This document shows, one piece after another, positions 16,434-19,187 of a stretch of DNA of 64,000 bases; positions within the stretch are counted from its first letter, which is position 1; every line of letters begins with the position of its first letter. Below the pieces are notes generated by a model. That model was not told the origin of the DNA and did not search any database. It saw nothing but the letters and a program-made list of their open reading frames with translations. Origin of the DNA: Bdellovibrio bacteriovorus (GTDB lineage: Bacteria > Bdellovibrionota > Bdellovibrionia > Bdellovibrionales > Bdellovibrionaceae); NCBI RefSeq assembly GCF_001592745.1, contig NZ_LUKD01000005.1:1-64000 (forward strand), in the 5' to 3' direction. The position numbers and the translations under genes were made by a program.

Positions 16434-16760
16434 ATGACGGGCCCAAGCGAGATCAAAGTTATTAAAAAGCGTCCTGAGCTTAAAGACCTGGATTCAGGTC
16501 GAGTGCGTGAGGAAGGCAAGGAATTGTTGCAGACATTGATTCGCGGCTTGGTTGATCATCCGGATTCTATCATCGTGACATACAGTTTCGGTGATAAGAC
16601 GACTGTTTATAAAGTCGAATGCGATCAAAAGTGCCTAGGCCAAATCATCGGCGCTAAGGGCAAGAATATCAACGGCGTGCGCGCGGTGATCAGCGCGACG
16701 TTGGCGCGAAAAGGTGTTCGCGCCATTGTTGAAATTCCGTACTACTGTGTCGACGCTTAA
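16434..16760 (+). CDS. KH-domain RNA-binding protein (KhpA-like)
   Basis: This is a 108-residue protein. The C-terminal 75 residues form a single type II KH domain with the RNA-binding loop IIGAKGKNINGVRAVI (G-x-x-G = GAKG), as in KhpA. An N-terminal extension of about 30 charged residues (VIKKRPELKDLDSGRVREEG) is longer than in typical KhpA. KhpA with KhpB binds small RNAs and mRNAs affecting cell division and envelope genes. There is no khpB or rpsP neighbour, unlike the usual context, so this may be a second KH protein. Its stop overlaps the convergent gene by four bases. Confidence 0.82.
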   Translation: MTGPSEIKVIKKRPELKDLDSGRVREEGKELLQTLIRGLVDHPDSIIVTYSFGDKTTVYKVECDQKCLGQIIGAKGKNINGVRAVISATLARKGVRAIVEIPYYCVDA

Positions 16761-17182
16761 GGTTTTACATCGACATCGAATTCGCCTTTTTCGCCATTCA
16801 CGAAAAGGCGGATCTGCCAGCGACCTGCCATGACGAAGTAAGCTTCAGAGACGAAGTAAATACCCTGATCCTGTTTCACAACTTTGACCGGGCCTGAACC
16901 GTGACCATGATGGCCCATGTTCATCCAAAGATCGACTTTCAAATTTTGTGGATCCACCATCACGGGTTCGCCGTTAGCAGAGGCGTACCCATAGAATTTT
17001 ACTAGGAACTGAGACTCTTCAGAATCAGACGGTCCTTTTGTGAATTCAATCGAAGCGCAAACATTTGACGTTTTGAAATAAACAGGGCATGCCGCGCCAG
17101 CTTGAGCTCTGGCATTTGCACTGAAGAGAAGACCCGCAATAAGAAGAGCTGCTCCTAAAATAATAGAACCAATAAGTTTCAT
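16757..17182 (-). CDS. FixH/YtkA-like periplasmic protein, Met/His-rich
   Basis: This 141-residue protein has an N-terminal hydrophobic signal/anchor (about residues 5-26). One beta-sandwich domain has the pattern seen in YtkA/FixH-like proteins: LKVDLWMNMGHHGHGSGPVKV, then YFVSEAYFVMAGRWQIRLFV. The Met/His cluster (MNMGHHGHG) could bind copper. It is the last gene of a minus-strand operon with a barrel protein, a second FixH-like lipoprotein and a redoxin. AAGGAAATG-type ribosome site (GAGAAGGAA before the ATG). The metal role is inferred from residues and context. Confidence 0.7.
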   Translation of the reverse strand: MKLIGSIILGAALLIAGLLFSANARAQAGAACPVYFKTSNVCASIEFTKGPSDSEESQFLVKFYGYASANGEPVMVDPQNLKVDLWMNMGHHGHGSGPVKVVKQDQGIYFVSEAYFVMAGRWQIRLFVNGEKGEFDVDVKP

Positions 17183-17191
17183 TTCCTTCTC

Positions 17192-18091
17192 CTACCGAGG
17201 CCACCGTTGTTGGTAGCTGATATTAAATGTTTTTGATAAACTTGAATTCACGGGATTGCCAATCCAACTTTGGTCGCTGTAGCTGACAGTGACCGCAGAT
17301 GCGAGATTGATCATGTAGCTGCCTGAAAATCCTAAGGTGAAATTTCTTTGAGCTGTGCCATCGCTACTCGTTGCGCCTGAAAGCCGAATCGCATCTTCAT
17401 ATAAATAGGTGAGTGCAGAACCCACGCGATAATCGCCACGATTCCATCCAAGGCCTACGGTCTGAGTGGTTCCAAATCCAGGCTTTACTTCAACGTCTCC
17501 ACCATAGGCCTCGTTCGAAATCGTGCGCGGTAAAGAGTAGTGAATTTCTCCGTTATAATTGGCGTCCCAGGTCGCCCAGGCTTTCATCAAAGCGACGCCA
17601 CCGCCCAGGGAATAAAAACCGCGACCGCGAATGTCTGTGGCTGTTGTGATAGAGGAATCGTAAATGGAAGGGCTTGTTGGCAAGGTCACTTGTAAAAAAG
17701 TCAGACCTTTGGGTTTCCATCGAGAATAAGTTCTTTCAGGAAAAGTTTCATGTCCCAGGTATAAAGAAATATCGCCAACTCCGCTAGAATCAGAAGAGTT
17801 GTCAGCAGACTTCATCATCACCGGGATCGAAAATCCGGCTTGCAAGCTGTCGCTCACCAAGGACGCGCCTTCAAGTTTCAGTGTTTGCGCTAAGTTTCCA
17901 TCCTGACGACGCAGCCATTTGCCATTGGCTAAAACTTCATCGCTGACTTGCGCGTAAGAATACGTACTTGTTACCTGAGCTTTGTCGTCAGCTAAAATCA
18001 GCGCGGGAAAAGAAAAACTTCCACCACAACAACTTGCGGCCAAAGACAGCGAGCCACTAAAAAGAATCAAGACAAATACAAAATATTTCAT
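17192..18091 (-). CDS. Outer-membrane beta-barrel-like protein with N-terminal CC motif
   Basis: This 299-residue secreted protein has a signal peptide ending ...LSLAA. The mature protein begins SCCGGS, a vicinal Cys pair. The rest is a run of amphipathic strands with aromatic girdles (YSYAQV, GFYSLGGGV, YRVGSALTYLY, FTLGFSGSYMI) ending in ISYQQRWPR, as in small outer-membrane channels. Its start overlaps the stop of the preceding FixH-like lipoprotein gene in an ATGA, so the products are made together. The ligand is unknown. The CC pair next to a CPCS redoxin suggests redox or metal handling. Confidence 0.7.
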   Translation of the reverse strand: MKYFVFVLILFSGSLSLAASCCGGSFSFPALILADDKAQVTSTYSYAQVSDEVLANGKWLRRQDGNLAQTLKLEGASLVSDSLQAGFSIPVMMKSADNSSDSSGVGDISLYLGHETFPERTYSRWKPKGLTFLQVTLPTSPSIYDSSITTATDIRGRGFYSLGGGVALMKAWATWDANYNGEIHYSLPRTISNEAYGGDVEVKPGFGTTQTVGLGWNRGDYRVGSALTYLYEDAIRLSGATSSDGTAQRNFTLGFSGSYMINLASAVTVSYSDQSWIGNPVNSSLSKTFNISYQQRWPR

Positions 18092-18507
18092 GGAACGATC
18101 ATTGAGGCGTATGAAGAGTCAATCGTGACTCCGTTGTTTTTCAGTGTGAAGCGAATATCCCAATCTCCGGGCATCAAGAAGTACACGTCGGTGATGCGGT
18201 ATTGAGTCGCATTGATTTTTTCGATTTTTACGGGAATCGAGCCATGGCCCATAGACGGCATCCAAAGACTGACCGCCAATTCATTGAACTGATCCGAAGG
18301 CGCTGAAAAATTTAAAACGAATGCATTGGCTTGTTCACTTGTCGGCGCATTTTCCCAGCTGATCTTAGCCATAATACGAACTTTAGAAAAGTAAGCGCCG
18401 TCGGCCATCGGCTTATTCTGCAGATGTTGGTCATCGTCCGAGACATAATCAGGATTCGCGCAACTCGCAAACAAACAGACACTTAAAATGAGCATCAGAG
18501 CTTTCAC
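18088..18507 (-). CDS. FixH/YtkA-like lipoprotein
   Basis: This is a 139-residue lipoprotein starting at GTG 18507. GGAGG lies eight bases upstream, within the end of the redoxin gene, whose stop directly abuts this start. Lipobox FASC (Cys near residue 16). The domain parallels the protein at 16757: LAVSLWMPSMGHGSIPVKI, then YRITDVYFLMPGDWDIRFTL. Met and His in MPSMGHG are candidate metal ligands. The two related proteins in one operon probably arose by duplication, one lipid-anchored and one soluble or membrane-tethered. Confidence 0.7.
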   Translation of the reverse strand: MKALMLILSVCLFASCANPDYVSDDDQHLQNKPMADGAYFSKVRIMAKISWENAPTSEQANAFVLNFSAPSDQFNELAVSLWMPSMGHGSIPVKIEKINATQYRITDVYFLMPGDWDIRFTLKNNGVTIDSSYASMIVP

Positions 18508-19053
18508 TTAGCTGTCCTCCCTTTGGATGTAGCAACCTAAAGCGCGGCCTTCTTTGTGACGAGGCGCTTTGCCTGCATGAATGTCTTCAAGAACTTCTTT
18601 TAAGAAAAACTTTTTCGCACTGGGGCCGACGTGGCTGTCGGTCACGCCGCCGTGATAGACCATTTCGCCTTTCTTATTAAAAACGAACGCATGAGGTGTT
18701 TTCAACGCACCCAGTTCGTTGGCTAGCTTAGATTTTCTATCTTGAATGACAGGAAAGGGAAGTTGAGCTTCGGCAAAATGTTGTTTGGTCTCTTCGACAG
18801 TTTCATCGGAGTTGGAATGAACACCCACAAACTGCATGCTTTTATATTCTTCCGATAATTTTTTCAGTAAAGCTTCGTGGCTGGCAGAGCAGGGACATTT
18901 AGCAGAAACAAAAATCAAGACCGTTGCCTCTTTATCTGATGTCGAAAACTGGTATTCTTTTTGTGAAGTGACATCGTTTCCGTCAAAAGTCGGCAGGGCC
19001 CATGAAAACGATGCCCAAAGTGTCAGCAGAATTAGAGTCGAAAGTCTTTGCAT
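18508..19053 (-). CDS. Thioredoxin-fold redoxin (AhpC/TSA-like), secreted
   Basis: This 181-residue secreted redoxin has a signal peptide (to about residue 19) and a thioredoxin fold with the active site VSAKCPCSASHEALLKKL near residue 50. FVGVHSNSDETVEETKQHF, FPVIQDRKSKLANELGALKTPHAFVFNKKGEMVYHGG (cis-Pro TP) and KAPRHKEGRALGCYIQ follow. The CPCS site and the C-terminal GCYI Cys resemble redoxins of the 'alkyl hydroperoxide reductase/thiol-specific antioxidant' group. It is first in the operon with FixH-like and barrel proteins, and probably acts on thiols or metal-binding partners in the periplasm. Confidence 0.82.
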   Translation of the reverse strand: MQRLSTLILLTLWASFSWALPTFDGNDVTSQKEYQFSTSDKEATVLIFVSAKCPCSASHEALLKKLSEEYKSMQFVGVHSNSDETVEETKQHFAEAQLPFPVIQDRKSKLANELGALKTPHAFVFNKKGEMVYHGGVTDSHVGPSAKKFFLKEVLEDIHAGKAPRHKEGRALGCYIQREDS

Positions 19054-19187
19054 AAGGCCTTTCTAACACACGAGGTCTATCTCGCAAACGCCACCAAATG
19101 TTGCGTAAATCCACCTGTACGGCGCAATGCGTTTCAAATAGGCCTCTTTCCATACCTTTTTAAAAAGGATTTCTGTAAACTTTCCGT

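Follow-up and report, generated by a model that had tools for sequence, protein, structure and literature searches.

Passage of ionic copper across the Gram-negative outer membrane is, to our knowledge, poorly understood outside TonB-dependent transporters. A cluster of tightly joined genes in Bdellovibrio bacteriovorus, in a stretch of 64,000 nucleotides (contig NZ_LUKD01000005.1, hereafter the window), raises the question of whether a channel, a redox enzyme and putative metal carriers form one envelope pathway. A sequence-only reading had regarded four genes as a single operon, possibly for copper or thiol handling. Gene order, homology, folds and conserved residues were computed here and are used below to define the conserved unit, the nature of its proteins and the function they may serve.

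The locus and its conservation in Bdellovibrionota

Four open reading frames on the minus strand of the window encode, in order of transcription, a redoxin (18508..19053, start ATG), a YtkA-like lipoprotein (YtkA1; 18088..18507, start GTG), a predicted outer-membrane barrel (17192..18091, start ATG) and a second YtkA-like protein, which is secreted and contains a Cys pair (YtkA2; 16757..17182, start ATG). The junctions were found exactly as the sequence-only reading had described them: the stop codon of the redoxin gene lies directly against the start of YtkA1 (18508/18507), an ATGA (18088-18091) is shared by YtkA1 and the barrel, and a gap of nine bases (17183-17191) follows before YtkA2. The same holds for the motifs CPCS (redoxin 53-56), MPSMGHGS (YtkA1), MNMGHHGHGSG (YtkA2) and LAASCCGGS, which includes the reported SCCGGS (barrel). 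The flanks, a KH-domain protein (16434-16760, plus strand) and a divergently encoded membrane protein of PF10136 (19188-21275, plus strand), recur only within the genus among the loci read. The operon promoter is expected in the divergent intergenic region 19054..19187 between the redoxin and PF10136 genes; a promoter and terminator scan of the locus gave no better signal than shuffled sequence.

With the barrel as bait, homologues were found in 39 of 60 relatives in an initial search; a profile built from 25 members then detected the barrel in 181 of 369 genomes in the phylum Bdellovibrionota. At 117 barrel loci the surrounding DNA was read and its open reading frames were scanned with barrel, redoxin and YtkA profiles, the taxonomic family of each locus being taken from the table of the phylum-wide barrel search. 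Redoxin, YtkA and barrel followed each other in this order and on the same strand at 106/117 loci, with at least one intact triad in 17 of the 18 families of the phylum; YtkA directly preceded the barrel at 116/117. Distances were short, with 50 bases or fewer between redoxin and YtkA in 105/106 cases and between YtkA and barrel in 113/116. Four of the 11 loci without a triad lie near contig ends, and seven have enough room yet no redoxin. No other neighbour cluster occurred in more than 20 of the 117 loci, which serves as a built-in control, and gene order and key residues persist at barrel identities as low as about 19-25%, whereas flanking genes do not, so that the conservation is far beyond chance. 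Lack of a conserved gene order elsewhere had been set beforehand as a possible refutation; the order proved to be conserved across the phylum.

A second YtkA gene is present at about half of the 117 loci, upstream, downstream or divergent, and is thus a common accessory rather than a core component, although extra YtkA copies do cluster at the barrel locus and all four genes recur in one relative (locus L007, genome G006). The conserved unit is therefore a three-gene core of redoxin, YtkA lipoprotein and barrel plus an optional extra YtkA. Of the postulated four-gene unit, the order of the first three genes stands, whereas YtkA2 falls outside the core and the extra YtkA is mobile. Genome G214 holds two complete triads, one adjoining a histidine kinase and PCuAC-SCO (L150, contig C3) and the other ZrgA and YtkA (L151, C18).

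No barrel was found in plasmids. A contig search with alignment A2, in which one tight pattern was used, returned 11 loci, all Bdellovibrionales, and the single barrel sequence gave no match. Plasmid relatives of the redoxin exist at about 26% identity; the one viewed (Legionella) had no YtkA or barrel annotated beside it.

The channel, the lipoprotein and the redoxin

The barrel gave no convincing match in Pfam or NCBIfam, but its sequence profile (A1) found FapF (E 6.7e-11). Its structural model (mean pLDDT 81) superimposed best on FapF (5o65; Z 26.9, rmsd 2.4, 261 residues) and on the COG4313 channel Pput2725 (4rl8; Z 24.7, rmsd 2.6, 252 residues), the next structures scoring far lower (Z about 18). 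Since the sequence profile alone reaches FapF, homology and not merely a shared fold is supported. The barrel is a member of the FapF/COG4313 channel family, which bears out its description as an outer-membrane-like channel. It shares with its relatives the fold over nearly the full length and an N-terminal segment preceding the first strand; it differs in being undetected by Pfam, in a vicinal Cys pair that is invariant and close to the N-terminus of the mature protein, and in its linkage to YtkA and redoxin, while the known members are linked to aromatic-degradation or Fap amyloid genes.

The Cys pair (C21-C22; 18026..18031, minus strand), which would occupy positions 3-4 once the signal peptide is removed, occurs in 116 of 117 barrels, the sole exception being an open reading frame truncated at its start, and 107 of these 116 have no further Cys after it. 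By inspection the signal peptide ends SLA/AS-CC. The barrel was also considered as a lipoprotein, but the residues ahead of the pair differ between homologues (S, A, P, V; A, G, N) and are not lipobox-compatible throughout; cleavage by signal peptidase I about two residues before the pair fits better. The crystallized COG4313 channel has 12 strands, and its lumen is blocked by ~14 N-terminal residues that reach inside (PMC4493636). The structural alignment begins at residue 22 of the barrel against residue 4 of 4rl8, where the model has a pLDDT of 41-52, and the pair is thus placed by homology only; it would sit in the lumen-plugging segment. It is retained at loci without the redoxin and is therefore probably more than a substrate of this enzyme, which favours a role as metal ligand. 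In one congener the barrel gene (L013, G012:C1:2483074-2483967) has an in-frame TGA, from a pseudogene or a sequencing error.

The two Met/His-rich proteins, which had been called FixH-like, belong to YtkA (PF13115) instead. YtkA2 matches above the cut-off (3.5e-8) and YtkA1 just under the curated one (1.3e-4), and all 17 members of alignment A4 match; FixH (PF05751) had no match in the genome and appeared in only 3/17 relatives (best E 0.0031). No YtkA-type genes besides YtkA1 and YtkA2 were found in this genome. YtkA2 has a signal peptide that appears cleavable by inspection, whereas YtkA1 is a lipoprotein by its lipobox FASC-A (Cys16; 18460..18462, minus strand), with the lipid Cys in 114/116 homologues and mostly A or G, here Ala, at +2. 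A predicted soft-metal site comprises M83-P-S-M86-G-H88 (18244..18261, minus strand; M83 in 114, M86 in 101 and H88 in 106 of 116) together with M112 (18172-18174, minus strand; 108/116); W116 is conserved in 114/116. The YtkA1 model (pLDDT 86) is nearest to Helicobacter pylori CrdA in both its apo and silver-bound forms (Z 12.0), unrelated Ig-like folds following at 9.2, and M83, M86 and M112 line up with CrdA Met residues in a weak sequence match (E 0.052). CrdA binds copper, its Met cluster being a proposed Cu(I) site (PMC9182242), and YtkA1 is by analogy probably a copper-binding lipoprotein.

The redoxin, with a signal peptide judged cleavable by inspection, matches Redoxin (PF08534, 8.8e-13), AhpC-TSA and DUF6436; among 17 homologues PF00578 was found in 17 and PF08534 in 16. 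It carries the motifs CPCSxSH, TPH and a C-terminal LGCxI. Across the 106 triads, all of which include it, conservation is high for C53 (105) and C55 (104) of the C53-P54-C55 motif (18889..18897, minus strand), H59 (96), TP (106), H121 (104) and C174 (18532..18534, minus strand; 106). An identity as SCO1/SenC was rejected: PF02630 matched 0/17, the protein is absent among the SCO matches of the genome, and its motif is CPC and not CxxxC. The nearest solved relatives are 2cvb, 2ywi and 3u5r. With the thiol-disulfide isomerase-like redoxins (2cvb, 2ywi) and TlpA/ResA it shares the redoxin fold and the TP motif, and with 2cvb and 2ywi also the CP and the terminal GC; unlike all of these it has CPC instead of CxxC, TPH, and a tie to the present operon at the loci studied. 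One redoxin of the L169 lineage (L085:4874-5437) has CPA for CPC and TPT for TPH, with YtkA and barrel still adjoining.

Genomic neighbourhood

A PCuAC-SCO cluster with another YtkA adjoins three loci (L150, L159 and L161) from three genera and two families. About 0.8 SCO genes would be expected by density in the 1.05 Mb of DNA read (2-3 per 3.75 Mb), and the adjacency is thus suggestive only. Divergent histidine kinases occur at five loci, followed in L150 by a RegA-like response regulator, and RND efflux genes lie near some loci; no copper regulator, pump, multicopper oxidase, Cu-ATPase or RND partner is conserved at the 117 loci. COX2 is nearly universal, and no co-occurrence link between barrel and COX2 was seen. 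The two clear SCOs of the genome under study lie elsewhere, in two operons (L173:3936-6726 on C9 and L174:3871-6678 on C8). Each also encodes a protein resembling sulfatase-modifying factors and a NirK-like multicopper protein, which carries a copper oxidase domain and, at its C-terminus, a cytochrome c part; other periplasmic copper users are thus present.

Some members of the phylum encode, on the redoxin strand and 33-71 bases ahead of that gene, a small membrane protein with one helix and a conserved C-terminal SGLxPP (L034:2605-3003, L037, L038:2546-2971, L149:2231-2632, L165), possibly a fourth component in its clade. The same clade has, directly downstream of the barrel, a secreted, diverged protein with an MHHDGG motif and no Pfam match (L038:4912-5499, with equivalents in L034, L036, L037, L039, L148 and L149), which may replace YtkA2.

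Proposed copper handling and alternative readings

We see about an even chance that the core is a cell-envelope module of the outer membrane, where it would handle a soft metal by means of a dithiol-plugged channel, Cu(I) being the likeliest metal. The COG4313-type barrel would be the conduit, and the vicinal dithiol of its mature N-terminus, lying in the lumen, would bind Cu(I) and gate or select. On the periplasmic side, the membrane-anchored YtkA lipoprotein would receive or deliver Cu(I) at its Met/His site, and the secreted redoxin, with its CPC and C-terminal Cys, might hold the dithiol and/or the copper reduced. TlpA, which keeps the cysteines of the CuA site reduced, offers a parallel for the latter role. 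From there, YtkA2, SCO or PCuAC could carry the copper on to the proteins that use it in the periplasm (COX, NirK).

The fixed triad, the homology to FapF/COG4313, the invariant Cys pair, the CrdA-like fold, the PCuAC-SCO neighbours and the clustering of YtkA genes speak for such a Cu(I) module. Against it stand the lack of tracking with COX2, the mere three loci with SCO/PCuAC, the low pLDDT of the barrel N-terminus and the want of an adjoining copper regulator or pump; moreover, the substrates proposed for COG4313 channels are hydrophobic molecules (PMC4493636). The envelope pathway for copper or thiols that the sequence-only reading suggested is thus partly upheld by the conserved order of the genes, the fold that YtkA1 shares with a copper protein, the channel's invariant Cys pair and the occasional PCuAC/SCO neighbours, with the amendments that the unit has three genes and that the carriers are YtkA proteins. 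The nearest functional parallel would be YtkA/CtaK, which works with Sco in CuA assembly in Bacillus subtilis (PMC13344008, PMC9145763). There too a YtkA-family lipoprotein with conserved His and Met stands beside a thioredoxin-fold protein, with a common theme of redox and copper; however, the redoxin here is not SCO, the envelope is diderm, a link to COX2 is missing, and an obligate outer-membrane channel partner sets the present module apart.

The direction of transport is less clear-cut. The parts could work outward in copper efflux or detoxification, with YtkA trapping Cu(I) and the barrel discharging it to the exterior, after the manner of PcoB/PcoC or CrdA. YtkA1 has the fold and the Met cluster of CrdA, a copper-resistance determinant, the Pco system likewise pairs a copper carrier (CopC/PcoC) with an outer-membrane copper barrel, PcoB (7pge), with which the barrel model pairs at Z 13.7, well under FapF and with no Pfam match to PcoB/CopB, and some loci have the RND genes close by. 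We regard efflux as rather unlikely all the same: no multicopper oxidase, Cu-ATPase or copper regulator is conserved at the locus, and the SCO/PCuAC neighbours indicate supply. With the CtaK and SCO/PCuAC links on one side and the CrdA and PcoB parallels on the other, supply is slightly preferred over efflux.

A redox-gated channel for a non-metal substrate, in which the redoxin would reduce a disulfide of the plug and so open it, YtkA being a structural partner, appears improbable. Plugged COG4313 channels linked to hydrophobic substrates, and a Cys-pair barrel sharing an operon with a thioredoxin-fold enzyme at 106/117 loci, would suit it, but the pair persists at the seven loci with room for a redoxin yet without one, and it is YtkA with its Met/His site, rather than the redoxin, that is the barrel's obligate partner. 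Export of polypeptides in the manner of FapF, together with a maturation enzyme, is very improbable: FapF is the nearest solved relative of the barrel and one clade has the small membrane-anchored SGLxPP protein just upstream, but a candidate substrate gene conserved phylum-wide was not found.

Returning to the proposed Cu(I) module, each of its components belongs to a known kind of protein. What is apparently undescribed is how they are combined, how constant this arrangement is in the phylum, and the invariant Cys pair: no account of a redoxin-YtkA-barrel operon or of the pair was found in the open-access literature. More tentatively, the module may represent a kind of metal channel new to the outer membrane: a COG4313-type barrel with a dithiol plug that serves as Cu(I) relay or gate, is loaded or unloaded by the tethered YtkA and is kept reduced by the redoxin. 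Such a channel would be widespread in Bdellovibrionota and perhaps ancestral there. The invariant dithiol of this probably plugged channel offers a defined target for mutation and would make copper traffic testable in predatory bacteria, and it would suggest a function for one branch of the large and poorly understood COG4313 family. The triad is common to predatory Bdellovibrio and much of its phylum, and it probably handles copper in the cell envelope.
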